Translations under genes and position numbers: made by a program
In this document: piece after piece, positions 9,901 through 63,990 of the stretch
How positions within the stretch are numbered: position 1 is the stretch's first letter
Layout of the letters: every line of letters begins with the position of its first letter
The notes under the pieces: generated by a model
Told to the model about the DNA's origin: nothing
Database searches by the model: none
The model's input: the letters and a program-made list of their open reading frames with translations, nothing else
Assembly (NCBI GenBank): GCA_036874045.1
Contig: CM072344.1
Coordinates: forward strand, 13,860,501-13,924,500
Direction of reading: 5' to 3'
Source: Cymodocea nodosa
Taxonomy: Eukaryota > Streptophyta > Magnoliopsida > Alismatales > Cymodoceaceae
Length of the DNA stretch: 64,000 bases

Positions 9901-12900
9901 TCGATGGACAATAGGTGAATATTCCTATACTGCCCCTTGTTGGTCCTTGAGAGATAGAGGAGGCTAGGTTATCCTAGTGTCATTAATGATTAGGATTATC
10001 CCATATTTGTAGGAATACAAGAGACCAAATCGATATGCCCCACCAAACCTTTGACTCTCTCATGGCATGTGGGCCCCACCATGTACGTATCTATGGCACT
10101 AATCTATAACACTTATCTATAACATTAATATAACAATAATATTATAGATAATCATAATTTCACCAAACTTTGCACTGATGTGGTTGAAAAATAATAGAGA
10201 CAATAGCACAACTAATTAACTAGCATGATAAGTACACAACATGACCCATTTATACATAGGCAGTGAATGTACTGATACTAAATAGATTGTATTTTTCTTG
10301 TTCATGCCACTTCCTCGATAATTGAAAGCATCTACATCAACAGAATAAGTAAACTGAAATATATAAGCAAGTTTATTTCCTTTCACTTATTTTTCTGGGA
10401 TGTGTACTACAGTTGCTTATGTGACCTTCAAATGATTGGTTGCCAGCGGGAAGAAAATGTTAAACATGTTCTTCTATTTTCTTCTTATAACTTGATAATT
10501 TTAATTTGCCAGAAGGATGCAGCCATTTTTTTGCCTTTAATTAGTGGATTGCAGTTTATTCTTTGACTCGGTCTAATAGTGATGTTTTCCAGGGGACCAG
10601 AGGGCAGCTCAGTGGAGTTAGTAATAAGAAGTGGAGCTGAAGGAAAACATCTAATTTTGATGTAAGAGTCAATTATTCATACTTTGTCATCCATGATGAT
10701 CAAAAATTAGGTTGACAACTCTTGTGGTTGATAATTCCAAGTGGGGTAAAACAGAATTGCTTGTCTTTACAGACCCATGAAAAATATATATGCTCCAAAA
10801 AATTTATTCTAATATTGTTTCTGAAAATGGTCATTTAGTGACTTTTTTTTCATGTTACATGTTATTATAAATTTGACAGGCGGGAGAAAGTAACAATCAA
10901 TCCAGTGAAATCTAGGGTTTGCGAGATTTCAGTTCCAGGAAAGGAGATATCCAGAATTGGCTATATTAAACTGACTACTTTTAACCAAAATTCTTCAGGT
11001 GTGTGAATCTCTAGGTACATTTTCTTGGGATGAAATCTCTTCCAGTCATGCAGTATACTACACTTTACATGGGGGCCAAATCTTTTCCTGTTACACATCT
11101 CCTTGTCATAAATTCCAACCAAGATTGGACAATGAAATAAGGAAGATGAAACTTGAAAGGATATAAGCAACAGAAAGAAGATTTTTACAAGTAAATTTCA
11201 GCCAAAAATTGCAAACATCCTGATGCACGAAGAAAACTACATATTCTGCTTTACCTTATGTATAAAATTGACAGTTTTTTCATATTGATTGACAAAACTA
11301 CTCTTAGGGCTCATTTGGCTAACTGTAATCAACATGTAATGTAAGGTAATCTAATTGAATTATGTTTCGCAATTATATTACAATATTTGAGTTTTTGTTA
11401 TTATAAGTTTTAATATTAGATTATGAGAAATTATGTCCTTTGGAATATCACTCAAATAGCTAAATATGAGCTTAAATGATAAAATTTATTCTTTATATAA
11501 TCTTATAATTAGATTACATTTGGATGCCAAACATTGTAATTAGACTACGTAATATAATTTTATATTACATGTAAATTATGGTCAACAAATGGAATCTTAA
11601 TGTGATCCTTTCATATTCTTTTGTCCCCTAATGAAAATACCATTAGTGTGGTTCTTTTAGTACACTTATGTCCCTTCACAAAAATATGGTTGGTGCAATT
11701 CTTTTGTTAGTCTTATGTCATCTTTGACCTTATACATGAAAGGGCATACATTTTGATCAAAGATTATCGTTCTGTTGTTTATGAAAATAGTTGTCTCCCT
11801 GAAGTCCATCCATTCAAGAAAAGATTTGTTGCTAGTTTTCCCATTCAAATTATTGGAATAGGATGTGTAGCCTTTCAATGGTGCTTCGCAGCCTTTTTGC
11901 TTAAAATAGTGCAATACCTTTATTACTTTTATGTCCTCTTTGAAAAGTAATTTTTGTAGTTTGATTGACAAAATACACTGTAATTTCTTATTACCCTTAT
12001 GTCCTCTTTTAAAATTAATTTTGGTGAAAAAAGAAACAAAATGATGTATTGGCTAATTGCAAAAATAATTTCTAATATATAAGATCAGTCTATCTTGAAT
12101 TTTTTGTGATTATTTGTTATATGACTTTTTTTCAAATGATTTCTGAGATAACCATATAAAATTTTTGACTCTCCTTAAGAATGATTCCGAGAAAGTAAAT
12201 ACCACAGGAACATGTGTAGCTGTCAGTGTCTCTCAGGTTGGTAAGTGCACTCAAAATATGCCACCAGTAGGATTAATTGATTAAAGTAAGCTAAAAATTA
12301 GTTCTAAATTAAAATTATTGAGAAATACTTTAAGAGTACAAAGGATTTAAATTGAGTAAACCTAAAGTTAAATATATAGAATCTAGGTTTAATTAAATTT
12401 AGAATAATGATGAAAGTTATACTTAGATGGTCATGAGATCTATAAAAGCAAGACTTTTAAATACTTACGATATGTAATAAGTAGTAATGTTGAAATTATA
12501 GAAAATATTATTCATACAATTAATGTAGGATGGATGAAGTAGAAAAATGTTTTTAGAGTGTTATTTGATAACAGGATACCATTCAAATTAAAATGAAAAT
12601 TCTATAAAATTGCCATTTGCCTAGCCATACTTTATGACTTAGAATGTTGGACTATAAAACATGTTCTATGCAAAAAGTTAATGTTACTAGTATGCACGTG
12701 CTTAGATGGATGAGTGGTATTATTATAAAGAATCTGAAAAATGATTTCATTAGGAATAAAGGAAGAGTTGCACTTATTGAAGATAAAATTAGAGAAAATT
12801 GGAGAAAATTGGGCTTCTGATCATATCTTAAGGAAACTTAAGAATGCATCATTTAGGAGAGAAAAATTTATTAGTGTTGAAGAAATTAAAAAGTTAGAGG

Positions 12901-34845: not shown

Positions 34846-37800
34846 CTAGTGATTTTAGCTTTCTTTCTATATCATCTTATCTCATTGCATTCAATTTTTG
34901 ATCAATTTTCATTATGATTTTCTTAGTTTCATAGATAATATCAATTTTAGGTTCTAAATAATTGTTTGGGTTTTCCCAACACTACACTAGAAAAACTTGG
35001 ATTTGTTACTTCTGTTTTACTTAGTTAATTTATCTTTATGCCTATTCTTTCTTTTAGAAGTAAACAAACAACTTTTAATACAATTTAGATATTAATTCCA
35101 ATTTATACTTTAACTGCAAGTGCACAGTGTCTATTGTATTAGTGTGCAAGTACAGGTCGATCCCATAGGGAAATGCTGACGAACTTAAGAACTGTTTGCT
35201 TGTTAAAAATCAAATTTATATATTCAATAAGCTCTCTGTTGAATTACAGCTAACTCAACGGACTAAGTTCATTGAGTTATGGATAACTAAACGGACTAAC
35301 CTCGTGGACTTAAGTTACCTCCACGAGCCTGTCTTTTCTTTTTAATATTGCTATTTACAAAGGAATTCGGACAACCATTGGGCGATTTCACAGATTGTAA
35401 ATAACATCAATTAAGCACTTTAATGTTAGTTAACATTGGATTTATCATTGAGCAATACTAACATTCAGATAATTCAAACAGTAACCATTAAAATCTTTAA
35501 GTCTTTTGAACGAACCAATTTCAGTAAACTGTAATACTAAAATAAACATAAAACAATCACAACATTGACAAAGATAACATTAATCACGATACAACACAAA
35601 CAATACAACACTCAAATACAACATACAAACATAGATAAATTATTTTTGGTATTTTTGTTTTAATATGAACATGGAAATGGGCGAAAGGTGAAATGTAAAG
35701 TAATCTCACTTGACAATAAATACTTCCGACACTACTTGCAACGCGATTACACCACTGAAAATTAAACCACTTACAATTCTATCTCCTCTCCCTATAGAAT
35801 CGCGAGTCCAGAATTGCAAGATGATCTCCTCTTCAACATACAGGCATCAATCTGAAGCCAAGGCTAAAAACTTTACGATCTCCAGAAATATGAGTCGGCG
35901 CTTGGTAAAAATGGCTTCCCTTCCCACGACGCGATCACTCCTCTCAGTGGTTGTCAGGTACTATGTTTGGCTCAGAATCGACCCGACATCAGGCAAGTAT
36001 CCTCACAGACCTCCGATGATTGGTGATTATGGTGTGATGATGGTGATGATGATGGTTGGTGTGGTACTTCAGAGAATTGCGACGCCGATCCTCCTCTGCA
36101 CACACTATCCGCCCATCGATCACACACTTCTTCTTCTTTTCTTCTTTTCTTTTATATTTCTTCAGTAGTAACTGCTTCTGCTTGAATGGTCGATTGGATT
36201 TCCTTCATTCATATCAACGACGATGTTTTCTTCTCCCTGTGCGATTGAATTTCTACGTGATACGTGCAAATGTGGTTTTTCTCTTCCAACTGTCTATTTC
36301 TACAACCGCTACAATGGCATATTAGAAAATATAAAGAAATAAACTGCTAACATAACGCGTTACCTTAGTGTAATATTCATGTAACTCAACGCGTACAGTT
36401 ATGCTAACTTAATGAGTTAAATATGTGCATCTCACGTGATATTCTAAAGCATTTAAATTCAACACGTGCATAAATTTAACTATCTGATGCTCAAGTGCAT
36501 TTCGGATACTTATAAACTTAACTATCTGATGCTTAGATGCATTTCGGATAGTTACAAACAACTCACCGATATATAACTTAAGTAAATCTACCAGATCTCG
36601 ACACGTGTCAATAGTAGTTTAATCATAAAAATAACATTTCAGAAAGTTACAGGTCTAACTATCCGATACTCAGATGCATTTCGAATAGTTACAGCTAACT
36701 CACCGAAAATTCACTTAAGTCACTTTCCCAGAACATGACACGTGTCCTCAGCTATTTTCTAAATAAAAAGAGATTTCGGAGAGTTACAGGGATAACTATC
36801 CGATGCTCAGCTGCAATTTCGGATAATTATAGATAACTCACCGAAAGTTCACTTAAGTCATTCATTATGGTTTCGACACGTGTACTTCAGGAAATAATAA
36901 AATATTCTCTCAAAACATAATTGTTCGGCAATTTAAACATAACTATCTGATACATATTTGGTCTGTTAAACATAACTGTCTGAATATGTTCGGTATGTTA
37001 AACATAACTGTCTGAAATATCAGAAAATTCGGATACTTAAGAATTTCACAGACTGCAACTTACCGATAGTTCATAAATGTACTAAATTAACATTAATTGC
37101 CCCAAATTAAGCAAATTCTTTAATTAAAGCATATAACAGTGCAATTATAACATAATGGCTTAATTCTTATATGATAAGCTAAATATTATGCAATTAACCA
37201 TCATTTAACCGTTAATAATATGCACTTTTTCATTCTAAACACTTCCCTCATACCTAAATTTTGCTAGTCCCTTAGCAAACTAAGATCTAATTATTTGGTC
37301 TTTAAAAGTGCTAGAATTAATTCTTTCCCTTTTATTTTTCTTTTGTTTAGCATAAAAATATATTCTGTATGTTTCAATAATCAACCTGCAAATAAACTTA
37401 GAATATATGTAAATTACATACCAAGTATATCATCATCATATAGGTGTTAATTATATTATTATTTGTTCTTCTTTTCATCATCTTTCATCCTGAATTTTTC
37501 AATAAGATTTCTAGAAGAAATTTCAACAACAGAGTACAATCCAATTCAATCTGATTAAGACAAGTAGAATAAAGAATTGTATCTCCATTAAAACAACTTC
37601 AAAAGTCAATTCTAGATTTATATTATAGCAATTCTAGATAACAGAAAATATACTCGATTCATAAGATATCTGCATTTCACAAAACACTTGTATCTTTTCA
37701 AAACAGTATATGTATATATATTTTTTTTTCTCTTTTTTTTTTCGTACTTTAAAAGTTAATTTGACAAGCTTAAATCATACAAGAGCTTTCTAATGTACCC

Positions 37801-38430
37801 ATGTAACGAGCTTTCAGTCAACAATCTCAAATTTGATTAGGATCTTAGGTTGCCAAATTTCAAGAGTCATTTTTCATGTCAACAATCCTTACATACTTAT
37901 CTGCTCAAGTACAAAAGGCTTGTGATCAAACAAGTCAATAAACTCTCAAAATTTTCCCTTTTTAAAAAAAAAAAAAAAAAAAAAAACTACAACCACAAAA
38001 CAAAACATTAATCACATACTATATATGTATGTATTTCATTAATACAGATGTAGTAAAATGCCAATCTCATATAGTCTTGTTTCTATCAGTTACTGAAAAT
38101 ATGAATCTATAACAATAAGCTCATACTTTTTCTGTAGTTTAATAAGATCTACACATAAATCATTCTACAAGTTCAATCAGTCAAATTAAATGTATCTTTA
38201 ATCATATGTGTTTCATTTAATTTAGAATTCACATCTCAGCTCTTTCAAGACTTAAGATAATTTATTGATTTTTTTTATTAAGCATTCTGATTTCATTTTA
38301 AAATCGTGAAACTATTAAATTCATGAAATTCAGAAAAACATAAGATACTATATCTAGATTTGCATAAATAGTAAATTCAATAGCATCTTATATAGCCTTC
38401 TAAATATAACATTAAAGTAGTTTACAAAAA
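34399..38430 (-). mobile_element. Ty3-type LTR element fossil, copy R1 (LTR plus start of internal region)
   Basis: On the minus strand the LTR runs from about 38430 to 35105. It is followed by leader sequence and an internal region that fades out at about 34400. The LTR end carries the GATCGACCTGTACTTGCACA..GTGCACTTGCAGTTAAAG pattern seen in plant Athila/Tat-like LTRs. Long stretches are nearly identical by eye to 50845-57290 and 60465-62335. No polymerase domain remains here. The small differences between copies suggest fairly recent activity of the family. It is broken. Confidence 0.7.
36475..36900. repeat. ~137 bp tandem repeats with G-boxes inside the LTR
   Basis: Three imperfect units repeat with a period of 137-138 bases. 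Each runs from TAACTATC(C/T)GATGCT through ACTCACCGA and ACTTAAGT to a palindromic CACGTG, at 36602-36607, 36739-36744 and 36877-36882. In the minus orientation they lie in the first part (U3) of the LTR. The same units recur at 50850-51028 plus 55575-55750. Confidence 0.7.
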
Positions 38431-45839: not shown

Positions 45840-47251
45840 TCATTCACAACCATCCCACATTGCATACATAATATTTTCACGAAATTTATCTGCAATTTCT
45901 TTTCTTTGCTCTTGTGTGTTGTTCCCAATAGTGTTAAGTATTTCATATTGTCTTTCTACATTTGTAGAGTCTTCAACTTGTATATCACGTTCATCTTCTT
46001 GTACTTCATCTTCAAGATCTTGACATAAGTCTGTTTTATCTGCTTTACGAATGAAGTTGTGAAGTAAAAAACATGCCAACACTATTTTTGCTTGAGTTGT
46101 GAAAGGAAATGGCATATATCCTCGTAATATTGCAAAACGATGTTTGACTACTCCAAATGTACGTTCAATTACTGTCCTCAACTGTGAATGTCTGTAGTTG
46201 AAGTTTTCCACTGCATTTGTTGGTTGTCGATTTCCTTCATATTCTGATAAGTGATATCGAACACCTCGAAATGGACATATAAACTCAGGACTATTTGGAA
46301 ATCCAGCATCAACTAAGTAAAATTTACCTGCATGTATTTGAACATCATTTGAAATAAATTCAATTTTGAAAATAAGGTAACATAAAGGTAGATCATAAGT
46401 TGTATACCTCGTGGTATTTGCAAACCATTGCATTGAGTTGTTGCATCTTGAAGGAGTCGAGCATCTGCAGCTGAACATTTCCACCCACTGAGAACATAAG
46501 TAAATTCCATATCAAAATTGCATGCAGCCAATACGTTTTGTGACAATTCACCTTTTCTATTCCTAAATCGGGCATTCTCTTTTCCATAAATTGTGGCTTT
46601 AATGTGTGTACCATCAATAGCACCTATACAATCCTACTCATACCAAAAATAAATTTAATTAATATATAAATGAATAACATGAAATATTAAAATAGAAATA
46701 AAGATTGAAGTGTGTACCTTGAAATATGGATAAACATTAACATCATTCTGAATTCGATTGTGTGTAGCAACTTCATGTTTAGCTAGAAGTATATCACCTA
46801 TTTTTAATATAGCATTTATCATTTCATTGAAATATGTACTAACAGTCCATGTTGAGCGATGAAAACGCTCTCTGGTTACTCCATACCTTTGATTTTGTCC
46901 AACTGTTACTAAAAAAATAGCAAGTTTCTCCTCTACGCTCATATTTCTACTATCTGATATTACTTTCATATTTCTTAATAATCCACAAAATTGTAAAAAA
47001 ACATGTTGACTCATTCGATAAATTTTCCTGCAATTGTATGCTTGATATGGTGACGATGGATCTAACAATCTTTGTACATATTGTGCTCCTTCCTTACTGT
47101 ATATACGAGTGGTGGATGTTTGAATCCCATTTATAGTAATTCCGCATAGGAATTTCCATGTTCCCAATATAACTTTTCTTTTTTTCTTCCTTCGTTCTTC
47201 GTCTTCATTAATAATGGACATAGACATCTTCATAAATTCCAATCCTTGCAT
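45840..47251 (-). CDS. PIF/Harbinger transposase (DDE_Tnp_4 type) of PIF-1
   Basis: Endonuclease that cuts and rejoins transposon ends at TTA/TAA targets. Three exons on the minus strand: 47251-46718, 46633-46408 and 46327-45840. Introns are GT/AG and phases fit, giving 415 residues without a stop. The N-terminal half has the family's YSKEGAQYVQRLLDP and RKIYRMSQHVFLQFC. The catalytic residues are Asp185 (GAIDGTH), Asp260 (KFYLVDAGFP) and Glu308 (RTVIERTFG), with 47 residues between the last two as usual for PIF. The exon layout is the same as in the PIF-2 transposase. ATG 47251 is supported by the similar length of PIF-2, although a start at a later Met is possible. Confidence 0.9.
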
Positions 47252-47429
47252 CTGTACCTATCATATCAATTATGATTTAATAAAGAAAACATAATAATAG
47301 CATACAATGCAAAACAATGCATACATCAACAAAATGTTTAGACCATGTTACGTAACATTAAGGATAACACAAGTTCAATAAATTCAAACATGTTCAACAA
47401 AATTTAAATTTTTAAATGAAAAAAGCACA

Positions 47430-48529
47430 TCATTTCAAATTGAACTTCAACCATGAAGTTCTCATGTTCGGTGGTAGACGCCTAAATTGATTCTTCTTTG
47501 ATTCTATCTCCAATAATTGCATTGCCTTGTATTTTTCTTCTTCTGTAAGATCTGTAAGTGAAAGTAAAATAGTGAGAACATCATCTTCTTCACGATCTTT
47601 TTTCTCTAACAATTCCATCTTCCTCTCCATGTATGCTAATTTCCTTTCTTCAATACGTTGTGTAAATGTCATCTTCTCCTTTTGGATCGATATCATGTTC
47701 TCTAGTAGTTGTATGGCACGCTCTGAGTATGCCATTTTCCTCGAATTTTCTTCCAAATCCTCACTAAAATAATTCATAAGTGATACACCAACATTGTTCA
47801 TTGTAGATGCCATAAGTTGTTGTGATTCAGCATGTGGATGTGGACGTTTTCCTTTCCTACATGAGTCTACATCATTCAAACTAGGAGAAGGAGTTTGAGT
47901 AGGAAAAGGATCTTGAGTTTCAGCCTCAAATTCCATAGTATTTTGTGTAAGAGGTACATTATCAAGGTTATTTGTATCTTCATTCAACTTCACAGCTGCT
48001 CTCAGATTTGTTGTACTCATTTTAGTTGAGCCTGTTGCAAGATTTCCTTCAAATATTATTTGAAGCTGGTCATATATAGGACATGCTTTACCCTTGTACT
48101 GTGCACACTCTAGATGAACCTATTAGGAAAAAAAATATTAGTACAAATTATAAGCTAATCAAATGTTAAATTTAAATTTGAAAAAATTCAACTAACCATA
48201 ACAAAATCATCCCAAACTTCTTTTGCGATATCAGTATGTCCATCAATGTAGTTCCATCCCCAACCACTTTGTGCACCAATCTTTGTATAAATCTTGTACA
48301 TTTGTCGCCATGTTTTCATTCGACTATCAATATTTTTCTTTTAGATGTTACCTCCTGTTTCTTTATTGTAATCATCAATTACCTTCAGCCAAGTATCAAC
48401 TCGTATCTTTCCATCAGTAGTTTTACCATTACCCTCCTTAATAGCATCACACACCTTTCTTAATATCATCTCATCTGCTTGAACACTCCAACTAAAATAA
48501 GATCTTCCACATCCTTTCTTGTTTTCCAT
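47430..48529 (-). pseudogene. PIF-1 ORF1, Myb/SANT-like DNA-binding protein, interrupted
   Basis: PIF/Harbinger ORF1 proteins bind DNA through a trihelix-like Myb/SANT domain and help the transposase. Two exons: 48529-48197 and 48119-47430, GT/AG, phase 0. Exon 1 encodes the SANT-like domain (YFSWSVQADEMILRKV, TWLKVIDDYNKETG, MKTWRQMYKIYTKIG, GWGWNYIDG). A TAA follows codon 62, where PIF-2 has a Thr codon (ITKKN), so the reading frame is cut early in the domain. The rest stays open for 230 codons and contains a Glu/Lys-rich probable coiled coil. The single stop suggests recent decay. Confidence 0.8.
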
Positions 48530-50844: not shown

Positions 50845-51248
50845 AGATACATTTCGGATAGTTACAAACAACTCACCGATATATAACTTAAGTAAATCTA
50901 CCAGATCTCGACACGTGTCAACAGTAGTTTAATCATAAAAATAACATTTTGGAAAGTTACAGGTCTAACTATCCGATACTTAGATGCATTTCGAATAGTT
51001 ACAGCTAACTCACCAAAAATTCACTTAAGGGCGTGTTAGTGCATGACGGAAAATTCTGACGGAAAGGAAAAGGAAAATTCTGACGGAAATGAAATGGAAA
51101 ATTTGTAACGGAAAGGAAAAGGAAAATTCTGAGAGGGGTTTAGTGCAGGACGGAAAATTCTGATGGAAATTCTAACAAAAGTTTATTACAACTAATATTC
51201 GAAAAATACAAATACATCTTAATTGAAATATTACAATACGAAATAATA

Positions 51249-52667
51249 TCATCTAGTTCTTCCATCCCACATTGCCATCATCATATCTTCTCGCATCTTA
51301 TCTGCCATTTCTTTTCTTTGTTCTTGAGTCATTCGAACCTGGGCATTGCTTTCTATATGTATCTCTCCCATTGGTTGTATGTCATCAATAATATTTAACT
51401 CTTCCAACTCATCTAGCAAGTCCTCAAGTAAATCTTCCTTATCAGTCTTACGAATAAAATTATGAAGCAAAAAACATGCGATGACAATCTTTACTTGTGT
51501 TTCATATGGATATGGCATTTGACCACGTAATATTGAAAATCGATGTTTCACAACTCCAAATGTACGTTCAATGACTGTTCTCAATTGTGAATGTCTGTAG
51601 TTGAAATTTTCTACAGCATTACGAGGAACTCTATCATTAACATAATCAGATAGATGGTATCTTACACCTCGAAATGGACAAATATATTCTGGTCGATTTG
51701 GATATCCAGCATCAACTAAGTAAAACTTACCTGTATAAAAAAAATATTAGTATGGTGATGTCTTCATAACTTGTAGAAGTGGAAAACACATTTACCTGGT
51801 GGAACTTGAAAACCATTAGGTCTAGTAACTGCATCTTGGAGAATACGAGCATCAGCAGCTGATCCTTCCCAACCAGCTAAAATATATGTAAATTCCATAT
51901 CAAAATTACATGCTGCCATTACATTTTGAGATAATTCACCTTTCCTGTTCCTAAATCTTGCTGTTTCTTGTCCATAAATAGTTGCTTTTATATGTGTACC
52001 ATCAATAGCTCCAATACAATCCTATAAACATGCACTTTTATTTTGATATTGACTAAAATAACATATAAGATAAGGAAACACCAAAGGTGTGAAAATGTAC
52101 CTTAAAATATGGGTACACATTTGAGTCTTGACGAATTCGACTTGGTGTTTCAGATGAAGGTCTTGCTAGAAGAACATGATTTAGTCGTAATACAGCATTC
52201 AACACTTCATTAAAGTATTTACTAACTGTCCAACTTGATCGACTAAATCGTTCTGTAGTTACTCCATACCTTTGATTTTGCCCAATTGTCACAAGGAACA
52301 TGGCAAACTTCTCTTCTACACTGATATTGTTGGTATCTTTCAGCACTTCTTCCCTCCTCATTAATTCACAAAAACCCTTGAAAACACTTTGACTCATTCT
52401 ATAAATCTTTCGACAATTGTAAACTTGATGTGGTAAAGAAGGATCTAATAATCTTCTTATATAATCTGCACCTTCTTTACTATAAATACGACTTGTATTT
52501 GAAAACAAAGTTGAGGTACTTGCAATCCCTGCTAAAATATTCCAAAAAGCAAGTAAACGTCTTCGCCTTCTTCTAGCATGTTCTTCCTCTTCTTCAAATA
52601 ACATCAATGTGTTATTTACTAGTTCGTCAAAATCCTCTTCAAAATCCTCTTCAAAATTCATCGTCAC
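51249..52667 (-). CDS. PIF/Harbinger transposase of PIF-2
   Basis: Same role and domain as the PIF-1 enzyme. Minus-strand exons 52667-52101, 52021-51796 and 51730-51249 (GT/AG, phases match) give 424 residues without a stop. An acidic then Arg-rich N-terminus (EEEEEHARRRRRR) is followed by YSKEGADYIRRLLDP and RKIYRMSQSVFKGFC. The catalytic triad is Asp196 (GAIDGTH), Asp271 (KFYLVDAGYP) and Glu319 (RTVIERTFG). Exon 2 has exactly the same length (226 bases) as in PIF-1, which supports the splice model. With intact ORF1, ends and target duplications, this is the best candidate for a functional transposase in the window. Confidence 0.93.
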
Positions 52668-52866
52668 CTACAAAATTTCATGTCCAAACATATTACAAGG
52701 TTGTAATACAAATAAACATATTACATGAAATCATTCCACAATTAATAGAACATAATAAAATATGATAAACAAACATCAATAATAATATCATTCCACATTT
52801 CCTTGTCCAAACAATAAGTAGTTACATCATACATCTAATACAAAAAAAAAAACATGTAAATCATCT

Positions 52867-53941
52867 TTAGTCTTCCATCTTTTCTAAGTGAAACTTCAAC
52901 CATCCTTGTCGCATTTCTTTTGGAATTGATAGAAATATTTTACTGATTTCTTGCTTTTGGAATAATTGAGTAGCTTTATATCGATCAGTCATAGATAGAT
53001 CTTCAATCTCAAATATTGAAGCAATAGCTTCATCTAAAAAAGACTCAGACTTCTTTTGCCATGCAAACATTTCCTTCTTCCATCCAAACATTTCCTTCTT
53101 ACATACAAACATCTCCTTTTGTATGTGAATCATCTCTCTCATTTGTTCATTACGTACCTCACCATTAACAGTATCTTGTTCACACAAAGTAAGAAAAGCT
53201 CGTGACGTATCTTTCAAACTTTCTGCTATCATTTGTTGAGATTCTGCATGAGGGCGTGCTCGCTTCCCCTTTTTCCTCTGCTCCAATGGAACATGTGCAC
53301 TTCCTCCTGAACTAGGAGGTATGTCAGAATCGAGGTCCATTCCATCTTGTGTAATGTCTGGAGTAAATATATTTGGAACTTGAGTGTTTGGTACAATGTC
53401 TACTTCTTCTGCCTGTCTAGACATATTTCCACTAGCCATAGTACCTTCAAAAATGAGTTGTAATTGTTCATAAATCAAACATGGTTTTCCCTTGCAGCTT
53501 TCACACTCTGGATGTGCCTACATAAAATTAGAATATATATTAAGAAAAATTCAATACAATTGGGATAATCTTAAAGTATGTAAATAAAAATCTTACCTTA
53601 ATAAACTCCTTCCATATCTCTTCATCTATATCAGTATACCCTTGTATGAAATTCCATCCCCATCCACTCTGATTTGCAATTTTTGAGTAGTTACGATAAA
53701 TTTGTCTCCATGTCTTTAAGCGACTTTCCACATTCTTCTTTGTAATACATGCATTTCTTCTAATATTGTATTTTTCAACTACTTCATCCCAAGTGCTCCC
53801 TTTTATCTTTCCATCTTGGGTTTTTTTGTTTCCCTCATTTAATACTTCTGATAAAATATCTAAAAAGAATGCATCTGCATCAGCATTCCAAGTCATATAA
53901 GTTCGTCCTCCATTACCCCGTCCTCTATCAGAAGTACTCAT
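52867..53941 (-). CDS. PIF-2 ORF1, Myb/SANT-like DNA-binding protein
   Basis: Accessory DNA-binding protein of PIF/Harbinger elements. Exons 53941-53597 and 53517-52867 on the minus strand join in phase (AAG|GTAAGA donor, GTAG acceptor) to 331 residues. The Myb/SANT-like (trihelix) domain spans about residues 13-110, with TYMTWNADADAFFLDIL, STWDEVVEKYN, VESRLKTWRQIYRNY and GWGWNFIQGYTD. A spacer contains a basic KKGKRARPHAE stretch, possibly a nuclear signal. A region of repeated KKEMF..KKEMF follows. Unlike its PIF-1 counterpart it is uninterrupted. Confidence 0.9.
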
Positions 53942-54544
53942 TTACTACATAAGATCAAATATTAATTAACTGCTACGACAGAAGATTATAAGATTTACTA
54001 CTACATAATATATTTTGTCAATCTACTCAATAATTGAAAATGAAAGCAAACCAATAAATATATATTAATATTAAATGGTTAATGAATTAAATAACTTATG
54101 CCAAACAATAAATGCAAAATAATATCCTATGCCAAACAGAATTATCTTACGAATCACATCAATAAATGGTACATGAGGGGGTAATATCCTAATTTTCCTT
54201 GCATCTATATTTCTATTTCATCTACATGAGAGGGTAATATCCATACAAAGATTTCTTGATTGTGTGCCAACCATCTACTTTTGTATGCTAACCATCTCTC
54301 TTTTCATATTTGAACTGTTATATGTCATACAAGCAATGATAGATGATATGCCATATAAGCTTCTTTACTAGGCACTGTTTGGAGTAATACACAGAAATAC
54401 ATTAACATGAAGATTATAAGAAGTGTTAAACATCACGAATATTAATCCAAACATCACGAAGAGTAATACACAGAAATTCATTAATATGAAGTGTTGGGGA
54501 ATTGTACCTAAGCAAGACGTGAAATGGCAGAGGTGGAGTAGGAA

Positions 54545-55410
54545 GGGCTACCACAGTGACGGACGCGACGAGGAAGATGCGGCGAGAGGGCTACGGCAGC
54601 GACGGGCGAGCAGGAGGGCTGCAGTAGCGACGAGCGACGGGCAAGCAAGAGGGCTACAGTAGCGACGGGCAGGAGGGCTGCGGCAGCGACAGATGCGACG
54701 AGGAAGAGTCGGTTTCAGGCGACGCGACGAATGTTCTTCGACTTCACAGGTCGAGATGGGGGCGTCAGGCTCGAGGGGAGGTCGGGAGAGGGAGTCCAGA
54801 GCAGAGGCGAACGTCGTGAGAGGGAGACGGTCGAGGGTTTCGCGTCCAGCGGAGGCGAACGTCGCGAGGTTTCTCCTCAACTCTTCCTCTCAACCAGAGG
54901 TCACGGCAAGCAAGAGGGCTACAGTAGCGACGGGCAGGAGGGCTGCGGCAGCGACAGATGCGACGAGGAAGAGTCGGTTTCAGGCGACGCGACGAATGTC
55001 CTTCGACTTCACAGGTCGAGATGGGGGCGTCAGGCTCAAGGGGAGGTCGGGAGAGGGAGTCCAGAGCAGAGGCGAACCTCGCGAGAGGGAGATGGTCGAG
55101 GGTTTCGCGTCCAGCGGAGGCGAACGTCGCGAGGTTTCTCCTCAACTCTTCCTCTCAACCAGAGGTCACGGCAAGCAAGAGGGCTACAGTAGCGACGGGC
55201 AGGAGGGCTGCGGCAGCGACAGATGCGACGAGGAAGAGTCGGTTTCAGGCGACGCGACGAATGTTCTTCGACTTCACAGGTCGAGATGGGGGCGTCAGGC
55301 TCAAGGGGAGGTCGGGAGAGGGAGTCCAGAGCAGAGGCGAACGTCGCGAGAGGGAGACGGTCGAGGGTTTCGCGTCCAGCGGAGGCGAACGTCGCGAGGT
55401 TTCTCCAAGG
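54545..55410. repeat. 265 bp GC-rich tandem repeat in PIF-2
   Basis: Three copies begin at 54661, 54926 and 55191 (AGCGACGGGCAGGAGGGCTG) with a period of exactly 265 bases and very few differences. The third is incomplete. 54545-54660 adds shorter degenerate units. The block is CpG-rich in an AT-rich setting and lies at the end upstream of ORF1. Long Arg/Ser/Gly-rich open frames on both strands arise from the lack of stops in GC-rich repeats, and I do not regard them as genes. Confidence 0.92.
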
Positions 55411-57290
55411 TCGAGAGGAGAAAATTTCTGACGGTAATGGAAATTTTTGGATTTTATACAACGGTAAAATCCGAATTTCCTTTCCGTCAAGTATAATGCA
55501 CACTAACACCATTCTGACGGAATTCAATAATTTTCCTTTCCGTCAGCTCAATTCCGTCAGACACTAACCCCCCCTAAGTCACTTTCCCAGAACATGACAT
55601 GTGTCCTCAGCTATTTTCTAAATAAAAAGAGATTTCGGAGAGTTACAGGGATAACTATCCGATGCTCAGCTGTAATTTCGGATAATTATAGATAACTCAC
55701 CGAAAGTTTACTTAAGTCATTCATTATAGTTTCGACACGTGTACTTCAGGAAATAATAAAATATTCTCTCAGAACATAACTGTTCGGCAATTTAGACATA
55801 ACTATCTGATACATATTTGGTCTGTTAAACATAACTGTCTGAATATGTTCAGTATGTTAAACATAACTGTCTGAAATATCAGAAAATTCGGATACTTAAG
55901 AATTTCACAGCCTGCAACTTACCGATAGTTCATAAATGAACTAAATTAACATTAATTCCCCCAAATTAAGCAAATTCTTCAATTAAAGCATATAACAGTG
56001 TAATTATAACATAATGGCTTAATTCTTATATGATAAGCTAAATATTATGCAATTAACCATCATTTAACCGTTAATAATATGCACTTTTTCATTCTAAACA
56101 CTTCCCCCATACCTAAATTTTGCTAGTCCCTTAGCAAACTAAGATCTAATTAATTGGTCTTTAAAAGTGCTAGAATTAATTCTTTCCCTTTTGTTTTTCT
56201 TTTGTTTAGCATAAAAATATATTCTGTATGTTTCAGTAATCAACCTGCAAATATACTTAGAATATATGTAAATTACATACCAAGTATATCATCATCATAT
56301 AGGTGTTAATTATATTATCATTTGTTCTTCTTTTCATCATCTGTCATCCTGAATTTTCCAATAAGATTTCTAGAAGAAATTTCAACAACATACGAATCAG
56401 AATACAATCCAATTCAATCTGATTAAGACAAGTAGAATAAAGAATTGTATCTCCATTAAAACAACTTCAAAAGTCAATTCTAGATTTATATTATAGCAAT
56501 TCTAGATAACAGAAAATATACTCGATTCATAAGATATCTGCATTTCACAAAACACTTGTATCTTTTTAGAACAGTATATGTATATATATTTTTTTTTTCT
56601 CTTTTTTTTTCGTACTTTAAAAGTAAATTTGACAAGCTTAAATCATACAAGAGCTTTCTAATGTACCCATGTAACGAGCTTTCAGTCAACAATCTCAGAT
56701 TTGATCAGGATCTTAGGTTGCCAGATTTCAAGAGTCTTTTTTCATGTCAACAATCCTTACATACTTATCTGCTCAAGTACAAAAGGCTTGTGATCAAACA
56801 AGTCAATAAACTCTCAAAATTTTCCTTTTTTAAAAAAAAAAAAAAAAAAACTACAACCACAAAACAAAACATTAATCACATACTATATATGTATGTATTT
56901 CATTAATACAGATGTAGTAAAACGCCAATCTCATATAGTCCTGTTTCTATCAGTTACTAAAAATATAAATCCATAACAATAAGCTCATACTTTTTCTGTA
57001 GTTTAATAAGATCTACACATAAATCAATCTACAAGTTCAATCAGTCAAATTATATGTATCTTTAATCATATGTGTTTCATTTAATCTAGAATTCACATCT
57101 CAGCTCTTTCAGGACTTCAGATAATTTATTGATTTTTTTTATTAAGCATTTTGATTTCATTTTAAAATCATGAAACTGTTAAACTCATGAAATTCAGAAA
57201 AACATAAGATACTATATCTAGATTTGCATAAATAGTAAATTCAATAGCATCTTATATAGCCTTCTAAATATAACATTCAAGCAGTTTATA

Positions 57291-57856
57291 AAAATTTTAT
57301 AGTCTCATTTATCAGATAGTTACAACAAGTTCATAAAAATTTTCAATTTCCTCAAAACTTTGCAGTACCATTTCAATTTCTTTAATTAACAAATTTACAT
57401 AGCTGTTACTTCAATTACCTCCCCCCCCATACCAACATTTTGCATTGTCCTCAATGTAAAAACATTTCACAATAAGTATAGTAATTGTAGCAGGCATGAA
57501 TATAGTTTTGCTTGATTTAAAATTGAGGATGAGTAATTAGTTACATACATTGTTTCATTTGTATCTCCTTCTACATATTCCGATTTTTGATTCTGAAAAA
57601 CTTTTCATTCACAGATAAAAGCAAAATATAAAACAAAATAACATTTAACAGATATTAATAAATCAGTGTCTTGTGTGGAACTCAAGCTCCTATGCCTTTG
57701 GTGACTCACAAGCAAGCCAGTTGGTTTCCCAGAACAGATACCAACAAACTGGATTGATATATTATTTTTTTTATAAATTAAAAATGAAAACTATAATTTT
57801 TTTTTTTTAACAATAAATGCAAAATACACACAACATTAAACACACAAAATCACAGC
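57291..57856. other. Internal 3' segment of the F-box-bearing LTR element
   Basis: Lies between the F-box stop codon and the LTR copy. A run of eight C (G on the minus strand) at about 57420 resembles a polypurine tract in the minus orientation, though it is about 130 bases from where the LTR match starts. There is no coding sequence. Confidence 0.4.
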
Positions 57857-58996
57857 TTAAGAACATGATTGAAAAGTAGAAACAAATGGAATAAATGTAT
57901 TAGTCCAAGTAAACTTTTTAGTCATAGTTCTTCTTGCTATTAATTTTGTTGTAATGCAGTTCTTGTTCCTTCTTAATTTGTAAACATGTAATATATTATA
58001 AATTCCAAATACGAGTGTATTACCATTAATGATATGTAATGCAGAAAGGGATCCTTTTTGGTTCCAGGGTAATGTAACAGTTTCTATTTCTACATCTATT
58101 TCAATATACTCCTCTTCCCACTTCCATTCATTTATGTCTTCCATAATCCATATTTGAAATTTCATCAGTTCATCCCACCATCTTATCAGACATAAAGTAG
58201 GATCATCTTCTTCATTATACCACATTCCTATTTGAATTTCATTAAATTCTGTAGATGGTGGTTTAGCTATTTCACTCGGTACAGGTAAAATTTCTATATA
58301 TTCATCATAACTGTCTATGCTCACTATGTATAAATCAAATCCATATGCTAATGATATCTCCGTGACTAGATATATATATCCATCAAGTATGACATGTGTT
58401 TGGTTAATTAATGATTTCTGTTCAAGATATATCATAATATTTTCATTCCAAGATCTACTTAGAAAATTATACACACTTAAGCGTAAATCTTCACCCCAAT
58501 TTCCTGTAGGTCTCCAATAATATAATTTTTCAGGAATTACAGAATTTTTATCAGAAAATATCAAAGTTGTCCCATAATTTACAGTTGGTGCTTCAAATCT
58601 ATTAGGTCTTCCTATATTCCATTCTTCTCCTGTTATAGGATTTCTTATCAAAATATCAGGTAATAATAAACTTGCATACATTGGTCTCGTCTTGTATATG
58701 ATTAATCCTTCATCTATCCCCATAATATGATTTATTCCTTCTAATGCATTAGGTGGAATTCCAGTAGTTTCTTCCATAGCTAGATATTCATGGGTATTTG
58801 AACTACGATTAAATGACCTACAAATGAATCCATCTCTAATCTTAGTCATTTTTGCAGCTTGTAGTCCTTGAAAATATTTTTCTTCAATACAGTCTTTAAT
58901 TTCCTTTGATACACAACACAACCTATACAGATCTTTAGCTGACAAGTTACTTAGTACTTCTCTTAGTGCATCCAACGGTAATTGCATTAATTCCAT
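57857..58996 (-). CDS. F-box protein gene lying inside an LTR element
   Basis: F-box proteins are the substrate-receptor subunits of SCF ubiquitin ligases. The minus-strand frame from ATG 58996 is open for 379 residues. An F-box lies at about residues 1-45 (LPLDALREVLSNLSAKDLYR, CCVSKEI). A C-terminal F-box-associated-type region follows with RNPITGEEWNIGRPN and beta-propeller-like spacing (YDEYIEILPVP, EIQIGMWYNEED, LKNR..). The frame runs on upstream to 59059, but a TTTTACAG acceptor-like sequence just before AATCGACAAATGG suggests a spliced leader. It sits between the gag fossil (60477-59180) and the LTR at 57290, all on one strand, so it was probably captured and moved with the element. 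No stops or shifts were seen. The substrate is unknown. Confidence 0.8.
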   Translation of the reverse strand: MELMQLPLDALREVLSNLSAKDLYRLCCVSKEIKDCIEEKYFQGLQAAKMTKIRDGFICRSFNRSSNTHEYLAMEETTGIPPNALEGINHIMGIDEGLIIYKTRPMYASLLLPDILIRNPITGEEWNIGRPNRFEAPTVNYGTTLIFSDKNSVIPEKLYYWRPTGNWGEDLRLSVYNFLSRSWNENIMIYLEQKSLINQTHVILDGYIYLVTEISLAYGFDLYIVSIDSYDEYIEILPVPSEIAKPPSTEFNEIQIGMWYNEEDDPTLCLIRWWDELMKFQIWIMEDINEWKWEEEYIEIDVEIETVTLPWNQKGSLSALHIINGNTLVFGIYNILHVYKLRRNKNCITTKLIARRTMTKKFTWTNTFIPFVSTFQSCS

Positions 58997-59179
58997 TTGT
59001 CGATTCTGTAAAACACACAAAAATTTAGCAGAGACAAAAATAAACATGATACTGCACACCCTCGTGGAGTTAAGGCATAACTCAACGGACTAAGTTCGTT
59101 AAGTTAAAAATTAACTCTACGTTACTATTAACTAATAAAAAAATAAAAAACATATATACATACAAATAGTTGCTTCAGA

Positions 59180-60477
59180 TATGCTGCTTCATTCAACTGC
59201 CCTCCCAAAAGAGGTATCAATTTCATTAACCATTCTATTGACAGGATTAGGTATAGCTTGTATTGGCAATCCTCTAGTAGGTCTAACTTCCATTCATTCC
59301 TTCTATCTAAGTGATATATTTCTATTCTGATTTTGAATTGCAGCATTTCCAAATATAAATTCTAGACGATTGTTTACTTGTTGGATTATCTTTTCTAATT
59401 TCTCTATTCTAGCTCCTTGTTCAATTAATACTTCATAACTTATGTTCTTCTCATTTATATTTTCTCCTCCCTGGAAATTGTTGTTTCTCCAAGATAAATT
59501 CGGGTGATTTCTCCAATTAGGATGATAACAATTTCCCAAGTTATCTCTCTAGTTTATAGCATAAATAATATCTAAGTCATTTATGTTTGCATTCTTTTCT
59601 ACTAGCTTTTGATTTAATGATAACTCTTCTATTTTCTTTGATAATTCATTTAATTTCACCTCAAGCATAGTATTGAAATCTATTTCATGCATTCCTCTTG
59701 GTAATTTTCTTTTATCTGCAATAGCTTCAACCGAATTTTCCCATTGTGTAGTTCTTTTTGCAAAATTCTCTAAATATGCCCATGCTTCTTCACTACATAA
59801 TTTTAAAAATCCATTTTGACAAGTAGATTCTAATAATCACTACATAATTTTAAAAATCCATTTTGACAAGTAGATTCTAATAAAGATTTCCTTGAAACAT
59901 ATATGCCTTCATAAATTATACCTATTAGTTGTGCTTTACTCATTGCATGATGTGGACATTGAGTTAGTAAATCTTTAAATCTTTCAAAATATTTCTAGAA
60001 TGATTCACCCTGTTTTTGGCTACACATTAATATTTCTTTCTTCTTTTTAATCGTTTGATGTGTTGGATAATATTTTTCCAGAAAAATAGAGCAAAATTCA
60101 GTCCATGTAGAAATTGAATAAGGCGACAAAGTATATAACCATCTCTTAGCTTTGTCTTTTAAAGAAAAAGGGATATATCTAAGTTTGATAGCATCTATAC
60201 TCATGTTCGGCATTTTCATCATTTGACAAACTTCGTTAAATTCTCTAAAGAAATAATAGGCATCCTCTCTTTCTAATCCATGAAAATGTGGCAATTGACT
60301 AATATAATTAGATTTCAGTTCAAACCTATCTCCCTCAAAGTTTGGCAATCGAATACATGAAGGTTCATCAATTAATTTAGGATACAGAATTTCTCCTAAT
60401 GGTTTTTCTACTAGAGCAGTCATCTCTACGTTCTCTTTTAAAGAAAGGTTAGCTACATGTTTGGGTTTTCCCAGCAC
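59180..60477 (-). mobile_element. Ty3-type gag region of an LTR element fossil
   Basis: On the minus strand, downstream of the LTR, comes a leader and then a retrotransposon gag domain (LPHFHGLEREDAYYFFREFN, LKDKAKRWLYTLSP, EKYYPTHQTIKKKKE). Further Asn-rich gag-type sequence runs towards 59300. No protease, reverse transcriptase or integrase follows. The F-box gene comes next instead, so the element is non-autonomous. The region is broken in a few places. Confidence 0.8.
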
Positions 60478-62335
60478 TACACTAGAAAAACTTGGATTTG
60501 TTACTTCTATTTTTACTTAGTTAATTTATCTTTATGCCTATTCTTTCTTTTAGAAGTAAAAAAACAACCTTTCATACAATTTAGATATTAATTTCAATTT
60601 GTACTTTAACTGCAAGTGCACAGTGTCTATTGTATTAGTGTGCAAGTACAGGTCGATCTCACAGGGAATTGCTAACGAATTTAAGAAATGTTTGATTGTG
60701 AACAATTCAAATTTATATTCAATAAGCACTCCGTTGAGTTACAGTTAACTCAACGGACTAAGTTCGTTGAGTTATAGATAACTCAACGGACTATCCTCAT
60801 GGACTTAAGTTAACTCCACGAGCCTGTCTCTTCTTTATAATACTACTATTTACAGAGGAATTCGGCCAACCATTGGGCGATTCCACAGATTGTAAATAAC
60901 ATCAATTAAGCTTTTTAATGCTAGTTAACATTAGATTTATCATTAAGCAATACTAACATTCAGATGATTCAAACAATAACCATTAAAATCTTTAAGTTTT
61001 TTGTATGAACCAATTTCAGTAAACTGTAAAATTAATCACAAAACTGATACAGATAACATTAATCACGATACAACACTCAAATACAACATACAAACAAAGA
61101 TAAATTGTTTTTGGTATTTTTGTTTTGATGTGAACATGGAAATGGGCAAAATGTGAAATGTAAAGTAATCTCACTTGACAGTAAATACTTCTGACACTAC
61201 TTGCAACGCGATTACACCACTGAAAATTAAACCACTTACAATTCTATCTCCTCTCCCTATAGAATCGTGAGTCCAGAATTGCAAGATGATCTCCTCTTCA
61301 GCATACAAGCATCAACCCGAAGCCAAGGCTAAAAGCTTTACGATCTCCTGAAATATGAGTCGACGCTTGGTGAAAATGTCTTCCCTTCCCGCGACGCGAT
61401 CACTCCTTACAGTGGTTGTCAGGCACTGTGTTTGGCTCGAAATCGACCCGACATCAGGCAAGTATCCTCACAAACCTCTGATGATTGGTGATTATGGTGG
61501 TGATAACGATGGTTGGTGTGATACTTCGGAGAATCGCTGATACTGTATGCAGAAAGCTCAGTGCTCCTTTGTATACGCTGGCCGTCCATCGATCACACTT
61601 TCTTCTTTTTTTCTTCTTTTCTTTTATATTTCTTCAGTAGTAACTGCTTCTGCTTGAATGATCGGTTGGATTTCCTTCCTTCAGATCAACGGCGATGATT
61701 CTTTCTCCATGCGCGATTGAATTCCTGCATGATACGTGCAAACGTGGTTTTTCCTTCCAACTGTCTGTTCCTACAACCGCTACAGTGGCATTTTAGAAAA
61801 TATATAATCCGTGGAGTTACAAATAACTCAACGGACTTTCTTTGTTGATTTAACTATAAAACACGTGCAAAAATAACAACTTAAGTTTATAATGCTAACC
61901 TAACGCGTTGTCTTAGTGTTCAATATAGCAACTCAACACATACAGTTATGCTAACTTAACGAGTTATAACTTAAGTAAAACTACCAGATCTCGACACATG
62001 TACATCTGGAAATAAAATATTCTCTCTAAACATAATTGTTCGACAATTTTTAAACAAAACTATCTGATACATATTCGGTCTGTTAAACATAACTGTCCGA
62101 AATATCAGAAAATTTGGATACTTAAGAATTTCACAGCCTGTAACTTACCGACAGTTCATAAATGTACTAAATTAACATTAATTCCCCAAAATTAAGCAGA
62201 TTCTTCAATTAAAGCATATAATAGTGCAATTATAACATAATGGCTTAATTCTCATATGATAAGCTAAATATTATGCAATTAACCATCATTTAACCATTAA
62301 TAATATGCACTTTTTCATTCTAAACACTACACCCC
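60478..62335 (-). mobile_element. Ty3-type LTR copy R2 upstream of gag
   Basis: Aligns with R1 from about 34990 through 36330 and parts of 36350-37245, in the same orientation. It stands directly before gag on the minus strand, where a 5' LTR is expected. The LTR 3' end is near 60605. The part equivalent to R1 37245-38430 is missing: the match stops at CATTCTAAACACT (62330). The primer site after the LTR is not clear. Fossil. Confidence 0.7.
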
Positions 62336-63206
62336 AAAGAATTTCGTTAAAGTTCAGTTCAGAAAATTTTTCAGTACTCCTCTGCAATAAAAATTCCTGG
62401 GTAGGTGTTCTTACTAATCGCTTAGTGCTTAGAGAACGAGTCCATGTGCTCATAAATAAATAGCAAAAGATTAATTACATACCAGTTTGAAGCTTTCCAT
62501 TCTATAAATATTTGTTGTCGAATGAAGTTGAATCAGCTGCTTCTCCTTCCAATTCCTCCAAAGCATTCTCCTTTCTTTTAAAAGTGCTGGTAACTCGTAA
62601 ATAACATTCTGTTTTATATATATACTGTGCATCCATAAAGTAAATAAATCTCGTTGCAAGAACGTGGCTTGCAACATGCATCGTGGTTCCTATTTATATG
62701 GGTGCGTGTACCACTACTAATTTCAAATTTTGGTAACCGCTAGACCGACGAAGTTTCGTTCGTGGTTAAAAGAATAACTGTTCTGCTTAATCCACGAACT
62801 AACCTCGTTGAGTCACAGAAAACTCAACAGAATACAGTCGGTTACTATTGCTAACTCCACGGACTAACTTCGTTGAGTTACAGATAACTCAACGGAGTGA
62901 CTTTATATTATATTACTGACCTCGTGGAGTTACAGTTAACTCAACGGACTTACTTCGTTGAGTTAACACTTAGCAACATCTAAGTTTTACTCTCGTAAGT
63001 TCCTCTCTATTCTTTTTTTATTTATTCTGCTAACTGTAATAAAGTTAAATCTATGTCATTAATGCATCATTCTACTTAAAATACGTTTAAATCTGAGCAT
63101 GATATAAAGATTTAACTTGCAAGTCATTTTATGTTATGCAAAATTTACATTTTACCTTATAACATGTAGAAATTGATTAATCCTCTCTACTGCTCCTGTA
63201 ATTCCT
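62336..63206. repeat. Spacer with repeated AACTCAACGGA / TTCGTTGAGTT phrases
   Basis: Between 62755 and 62965 short phrases AACTCAACGGACT and TTCGTTGAGTTA recur many times, on their own and as imperfect hairpins. The same phrases occur at 35240-35320, 59050-59110, 60730-60815 and 61810-61845. This marks the stretch as part of the same retroelement family. No gene is visible. Confidence 0.5.
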
Positions 63207-63990
63207 TCAGAAGGTACAGCTAGTTCTGCAGCTACAAAATTTCTGTATTCTTTCACTGAAAATGGTTCTTGATCTGATCTTTTTTGATGTCCATTTAATG
63301 AAATCGATACAGTCCACCATCACCAGTGGAATCAAATCTCCATAAAATAATTTCTTCTTCACTGTTTTCAACTTGGAGATAAAAACTACAGACCAATTTA
63401 TTTGGATCTTATTTACAACTGCATATGTGGCCCATTTGACAAATTGACTTAATTCTATGTCATGGCCCTGTCGTTGATAAACATTCTTAATCAGAATGTT
63501 AGCTACCATGTGTGCTTTACTATTTAAATGCTTCAATCTGTTTAATAATGGCACACTAGGATTGATAGCTAAACAATCCTTAATTTGTTGTTCAGTCCAT
63601 TCAACTGCAGTTATATCTTCCAAAATTTTTGTTCCTTCATTCTTTAAACCAAAAATGTTGTGGAGAAGCTTTGGTGTTATCTGTACATCAGCTTCCTCAA
63701 TATTTGAAATTAATCCTCCTTCTCTCAAATTTGCATAGAAATAGGGCACTAAATTCTCATATACTACATGCCCTCTTTCTTGAGATATAAATTGCAGTAG
63801 ACCTTGGAATTCAAATAATTCTTTTATTTCTTACATTCTATCCCAATTTACTAGTCTACTGTAAATAATGTCGTAACCCCTTATTTCTTGATATTTGGTA
63901 TAAGCTTCCTGACTACAAAAATGTACTTCATTCAAAATTGTTGTTTCAGTCGGGTCAGGAAAGTGACTTTGTTGCTCTAGAGGGTTTGCT
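63207..63990 (-). mobile_element. Retroelement-associated ORF (plant 'Transposase_32'-like) fossil
   Basis: The minus strand has a coding region with VPYFYANLREGGLI, ADVQITPKLLHNIFGL and LKHLNSKAHMVANILIKN. This is the YANL..E / I..I.GL pattern of the 'putative plant transposon protein' domain, common as an extra ORF in large Ty3-type plant elements. 63207-63749 is open. More of the same type of sequence runs towards the window edge. The biochemical role of the domain is not known to me. It is treated as part of a fossil LTR element continuing beyond the window. Confidence 0.6.

Follow-up and report, generated by a model that had tools for sequence, protein, structure and literature searches.

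How does an open F-box gene come to stand inside a retrotransposon? The question is raised by a stretch of 64,000 nucleotides of Cymodocea nodosa (contig CM072344.1, here C16:13860501-13924500; hereafter the window), in which a sequence-only reading had described an F-box gene lying between gag and a long terminal repeat (LTR) of a decayed, non-autonomous Ty3-type element and had suggested that it was captured from the host. We followed this gene, the DNA around it and its relatives through the genome (374.6 Mb in 28 contigs). On our best reading, a plant LTR retrotransposon of high copy number counts the F-box gene among its standing genes, as a spliced accessory in the position of env, rather than as a one-off capture. 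We hold this architecture and its splicing, as read from the DNA, to be highly probable; what the gene does for the element we treat more tentatively.

Copies of the F-box gene and their spacing

The open reading frame (ORF) of the F-box gene occupies window positions 57857-58996 on the minus strand, as do the other parts of the element and the other transposable elements given below for the window, and encodes 379 amino acids plus a stop, uninterrupted as the sequence-only reading had said. In a profile scan, the 410-aa open frame around it carries the F-box domain (PF00646, E 7.1e-9), which stands above the cut-off at the N-terminus of all eight copies scanned (the window and seven others). 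The C-terminus in the window matches the F-box-associated type TIGR01640 (E 9.4e-7, under its cut-off), and FBA_1 is matched under the cut-off in six of the eight copies (E 0.02-0.06; 0.043 in the window) and is absent from two. An F-box domain implies binding to SKP1, and the protein is, judged by this domain, a probable SCF adaptor. A PDB sequence search with the protein gave no match, no F-box relative was found in a viral contig collection, and a single-sequence AlphaFold2 model, with a predicted local distance difference test score (pLDDT) of 31, was set aside. The donor gene was not found, because the best-match lists contain only copies at least 90% identical.

Is this gene one of a kind in its genome? 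Whole-ORF DNA matches were present in 40 of 40 scored places, the best 40 of 3,976 candidates, at 100% identity for the window itself and 96% for the rest; likewise, all 108 protein matches scored (108 of 7,026 candidates) reached 90-100% identity and covered all but at most two end residues. Genome-wide patterns allowing up to three mismatches identified 1,525 F-box starts with the upstream sequence unspliced and 202 with it spliced, 1,727 in total, with control matches at 0. The F-box element is a high-copy LTR retrotransposon with more than a thousand copies.

Equally constant is the distance from the gene to its surroundings. We joined 76 distinct LTR starts to 277 F-box starts among the matches listed, a number of joins that is uninformative on how many copies have LTRs. 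The distance from the ATG to the 3' LTR was 2,862-2,945 bp in 16 of 17 joins (1,842 in the remaining one), and gag and F-box lay 1,400-1,415 bp apart in all 12 joined copies besides the window. Nine joins gave the distance from the 5' LTR to the ATG: 10,310; 10,684 and 10,687, both in spliced copies; five at 11,978-12,265, which make up five of the six other joins besides the window; and 13,953 in the window. Both LTRs, each about 2.2 kb long by our reading of copies L070 and L072, were located in five copies, the window element among them, with starts 13.6-16.8 kb apart. Thus, the same gene inside the same boundaries recurs in several copies, as the sequence-only reading had led one to look for. 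A host F-box gene family invaded many times by LTR elements at the same place would have to reproduce the near-constant spacing of gag, F-box and LTR over dispersed contigs; we found nothing in favour of such repeated invasion and regard it as extremely improbable.

Splicing and the intron-free copies

In 8 of the 46 distinct copies fetched, about 1.5 kb including gag is absent, with identical ends at a GT and an AG. In these copies ...CTTCAGACTG runs directly into AATCGACAAATGG, some of them differing by single bases; in the unspliced copies, GTATGT follows the first part, and TTTTACAG, or something close to it, precedes the second. The corresponding intron of the window (59006-62482) runs from a GT at 62482 to an AG ending at 59006 and contains gag; its length is 3,477 nt because a solo LTR lies inside it, compared with 1,542 nt in L069 and 1,552 nt in L070. 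The coding part of the leader exon upstream of it (62483-62566; 28 codons) leads in phase 0 into gag and F-box alike, and the F-box exon begins right behind the acceptor TTTTACAG with a short piece, 58997-59005, whose reading frame is that of the ORF (NRQ-MELMQ). In the window copy, a single frame runs through leader exon, gag and F-box. Upstream of the leader exon, a TATA-like box can be read at 62609-62625.

The DNA shows copies that have lost an intron exactly, always from a single donor at the end of the leader. Use of the far acceptor takes out gag and fuses the leader in frame with F-box; the near one, 101 nt past the donor, fuses the leader in one copy with gag, which continues the leader frame in the window across an alternative intron at 62382-62482. 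The leader/gag junction was predicted beforehand, and the genome holds one match to it, with 0 mismatches (control, 0); unspliced gag acceptors, by pattern count, number 1,174.

Could the copies that lack gag instead be independent genomic deletions, or a single deleted lineage, with no spliced RNA behind them? Deletions of gag at other end points do occur, in L042 and L048. However, the same GT and AG ends are found in all eight of the fetched copies without gag, the exact leader/F-box junction recurs at 202 places genome-wide (control, 0), and the second, predicted junction, from leader to gag, exists. On a tree of the 46 copies, built from the F-box plus 3' flank with 200 bootstrap trees (the bootstrap had not settled), the eight spliced copies need 6 changes, 5 of them forced by well-supported branches, and they form one group in 0 of the 200 trees; with at least five changes demanded on the tree, an origin by deletion is very unlikely. 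At least one intron-free F-box copy carries both LTRs; therefore, a long RNA entered the genome by reverse transcription and integration after it had been spliced. We infer that this would have happened several times.

A short recurrent motif with inverted halves around AACTCAACGGACT lies at 59053-59113, 60721-60814, 61799-61859 and 62827-62972, that is, in the LTR, in the spacer and near the F-box acceptor.

Gene order and boundaries of the element

Where does the element in the window begin and end? The sequence-only reading had bounded it at 57290 and 62335 and had given the order LTR, gag, F-box and LTR on the minus strand. The order stands insofar as gag lies upstream of F-box and LTR sequence lies on both sides, but what had been taken for the 5' LTR is a solo LTR, 1,869 bp long (60458-62326, TG...CA), with TGTAG on both sides (62327-62331 and 60453-60457). 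Copies L069 and L070 are uninterrupted across its site; it is a later insertion that split the gag of the F-box element. At the other end, a polypurine tract can be read at 56101-56114, and the true 3' LTR starts directly behind it, at 56100, so that 57290 marks no boundary; the first part of this LTR (55575-56100) is cut off by a second insertion, behind which, by LTR comparison, it goes on at 50851-51028. The two LTRs of this pair within the window do belong to two unrelated insertions, which the sequence-only reading had named as a result against it, but a fitting 5' LTR lies outside the window. A search with the 3' LTR found a same-strand LTR start at C16:13933449, about 9 kb past the window end, with 95% identity over 524 of 526 bases. 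It lies 13,953 bp from the window ATG, and once the solo LTR, its target duplication and a 47-bp duplication in gag are subtracted, about 12.03 kb is left, in line with the spacing elsewhere in the family; the LTR at C16:13933449 therefore fits as the 5' LTR and is presumed to be that of the window element, which would continue through the intervening DNA well past 62335. At a substitution rate of 1.3e-8 per site and year, the difference of about 5% over 524 bases between the presumed pair gives a rough age of about 2 million years.

The gag gene of the window is split three ways, by the solo LTR, by the 47-bp tandem duplication (59790-59883) and by stops. The first part of its exon (62327-62381, by sequence comparison), including one copy of the target duplication, is cut by the solo LTR, and the remainder, matched by the profile PF03732, lies at 59192-60457 and is broken by the duplication and the stops. 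In L070, the profile scan matches Retrotrans_gag (PF03732) with E 4e-18. A stop at codon 244 is common to 17 of 40 gag copies, and stops common to many copies may be inherited or recurrent. The idea of a conserved read-through stop in gag was dropped, since of 40 copies 26 have CAG or CAA at this codon, 10 have TAG and 4 lack it.

What of pol, whose place the F-box gene had been said to occupy? At 17 of 40 places (C12:7566661 included), a 164-aa frame, as in L071, is followed at 4.1-5.8 kb by a listed F-box, and from the closing motif of this frame we take it to be the C-terminus of a Ty3-type integrase. Searches of PDB and of plasmids with this piece gave no match. In joins of 40 gag places with 40 such integrase-like places, gag followed the frame in 8 and preceded it in 0. 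A wider join of 150 listed gag matches with 116 F-box starts, 40 integrase-like places and 40 LTR starts is suggestive only, because it uses the best matches listed: 7 of the 150 lie 1.13 kb before an F-box, 1 lies after an integrase-like place and 0 before one within 7 kb, and 0 lie after an LTR start within 6 kb and 1 before one. Among 150 listed matches of a reverse transcriptase (RT) family search, none lay at F-box copies in a comparison by eye only. By subtraction, 4.0-4.3 kb separate the 5' LTR from the integrase-like end, and we infer that pol fills this interval without a second gag. Taken together, the proposed sense-strand order would be 5' LTR, some 4 kb of presumed pol, the integrase-like end, an ORF with Transposase_32 likeness, leader exon, gag, F-box, polypurine tract and 3' LTR. 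The ORF with weak Transposase_32 likeness lies at 63207-63830 in the window (PF20167, E 2.5e-5, under the cut-off); the Athila ORF-1 profile PF03078 had no match in the pieces scanned, which returned only the weak PF20167. By its gag and by the integrase end as we read it, the element is probably of Ty3 type.

Because an integrase-like frame lies upstream, albeit as a reading without a library match, placing the F-box gene where polymerase should be is unsupported, and so is the label non-autonomous. Even so, the integrase-like end could be a relic and pol missing, leaving a gag/F-box element that depends on a helper. It is true that this end is the only part of pol read and that gag stops are common to up to 17 of 40 copies, and parts of PMC2410132 describe Athila families with gag, or gag plus env, and no pol. 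Against this, the roughly 4.0-4.3 kb between 5' LTR and integrase-like end leaves room for pol, and dependence on a helper seems to us a real possibility, though the less probable one.

The DNA around these features holds other repeats. The insertion in the 3' LTR (51029-55574) is a PIF/Harbinger-type element with TTA flanks, matching inverted ends and ORFs with DDE_Tnp_4 and Myb_DNA-bind_3; it includes a GC-rich array of three 265-bp units (54640-55434). A second set of similar transposase-type ORFs lies at 45840-48119, with 73% identity to the first set over about 1 kb. Another 3' end plus LTR of the F-box element family, at 34963-38430, has an LTR 98% identical to the 3' LTR of the window's F-box element, with the other 38 best matches at 95-96%, and may be a local duplication. 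In L071, on C11, an inverted LTR-like stretch of another family can be read at about 690-2820, beside the integrase-like frame. By eye, no more than tens of kilobases separate many of the strongest RT matches from a contig end, and in places several follow one another (for example, C7:10449, C10:21223, C21:5965, C12:21911892 and C16:16073926); these are possibly telomere-associated non-LTR retrotransposons.

Selection, possible role and known relatives

Does the element make use of its F-box gene, or is the gene along for the ride? Among minor variants in 43 gapless F-box copies, the ratio of nonsynonymous (with stops) to synonymous changes was 191:60 in singletons, where the neutral expectation is 2.82, then 82:22 in 2-3 copies, 45:20 in 4-9 and 5:8 in at least 10. 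Variants common to many copies are poor in amino-acid changes, and singletons look neutral (variants in at least 10 copies versus singletons, Fisher p 0.0056; p 0.0007-0.034 over 12 choices, namely, four frequency thresholds by three overlapping copy sets, uncorrected). For variants in at least two copies, the ratio was 13:9 within the F-box motif, compared with 119:41 for the remainder of the gene, and the mean pairwise difference of the gene was 3.7%. The sequence-only reading had raised possible selection on the cargo; the counts of shared variants carry such a signal for the family, but there is none for the window locus, whose open frame is weak evidence alone because only 11 of 46 distinct copies are intact and the copies were chosen for likeness.

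Passive cargo, a single capture that hitchhiked in a burst and had no part in transposition, would agree with the 35 of 46 copies that are not intact, with the neutral singletons and with the low-frequency classes, which have no third-position excess. It sits less well with common variants that are poor in amino-acid changes, with an acceptor that sets F-box in frame with the leader exon and with near-constant spacing wherever boundaries could be joined, and we think it less likely than not.

Several observations count against a standing, spliced F-box gene and need to be set beside those that favour it. The copies compared for selection were picked for likeness to the window, the common variants are few, and there was no non-coding control. 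Codon positions 1/2/3 in 46 copies give 83/85/97 for singletons, with no clear third-position excess, 52/48/26 for variants in 2-4 copies, with none, and 21/16/25 for at least 5, with little; moreover, most copies of the frame are broken. The first part of gag (35 copies; 189:47, 46:16, 31:20 and 8:4 for singletons, 2-3, 4-9 and at least 10) falls likewise, and the last part (37 copies; 68:16, 25:9, 14:4 and 4:1) does not; thus, the contrast is not special to F-box. The leader/gag junction rests on a single place in the genome and was absent from the fetched loci examined. Spliced copies show some clustering on the tree (values as low as that observed came up in 30 of 500 shuffles), and recombination between copies could transfer the spliced state. 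The integrase-like frame had no match in library scans.

If the F-box gene is indeed a standing gene, what might it be for? The arrangement suggests that a protein-degradation adaptor of host type has become one of the genes the element uses for itself. We propose that the F-box protein would act as an adaptor of an SCF-type ubiquitin ligase, reached by splicing much as retroviral env is, and would be directed against some host factor that keeps the element in check; if viral F-box suppressors are a guide, an RNA-silencing component would be the likeliest target, although we consider even that target class doubtful. The larger scheme, in which gag moved behind pol, Gag and F-box are made by alternative splicing from one leader exon, the adaptor removes a host silencing factor, and packaging and reintegration of spliced genomes are regular events, is likewise tentative, and we would not bet on it as a whole.

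Each component of this proposal has a partial counterpart elsewhere. Parts of PMC2410132 and PMC6317226 describe Athila/OTA-type Ty3 elements with an env-like third ORF, which resemble ours in a PF03732 gag and in extra sense coding sequence between pol and the 3' LTR; here, in contrast, the extra gene is an F-box gene, and gag adjoins it downstream of the integrase-like end. One literature search for a gag downstream of pol gave no match. A downstream gene reached by RNA splicing is familiar from retroviral env and from Bagy-2 env, as cited in PMC7264820, whereas in this element the spliced gene codes for an F-box protein, and intron-free copies have returned to about 200 places in the genome. 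BARE (PMC3735527) is also a plant LTR element that splices to make Gag, but within one ORF, whereas here gag and F-box appear to be alternatives open to a single donor. In orchids, Ty3 elements (PMC9289625) have likewise fixed an additional ORF with a domain of host type, in their case an AlkB-type N6-methyladenosine (m6A) demethylase. The polerovirus P0 silencing suppressors (PMC6593998) are parasite-coded proteins with an F-box-like motif that bind plant SKP1; that source reports that P0 is stabilised when it binds SKP1, and that suppression does not directly depend on this binding. Function is thus demonstrated for P0, whereas the element offers the domain alone.

Has an F-box gene been described in an LTR retrotransposon before? 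Among the matches listed in our literature search, none is described in titles or the openings of abstracts, and the word F-box is absent from the main texts of PMC11963269, PMC9289625 (which screens 121 angiosperm genomes for LTR elements with extra domains), PMC7264820, PMC13317346, PMC3726574 and PMC6317226, two reviews included. The part of PMC3852528 on a sunflower repeat database lists 10 F-box sequences, ascribed by its authors to redundant genes or domains. Because the screen and the reviews name no F-box, we file the element as a new form among the plant LTR retrotransposons that have additional ORFs.

What would this mean for the biology of these elements and their host? If the F-box gene works for the element, it would be a retrotransposon-coded handle on the host ubiquitin system, comparable with the viral F-box suppressors. 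The intron-free copies record in DNA that retrotransposon RNA was spliced before it was reverse transcribed and integrated. Turnover of the F-box family in plants is reported to be rapid, and a single genome with about 1,700 such starts would give distorted counts of F-box genes, which bears on how that turnover is read.

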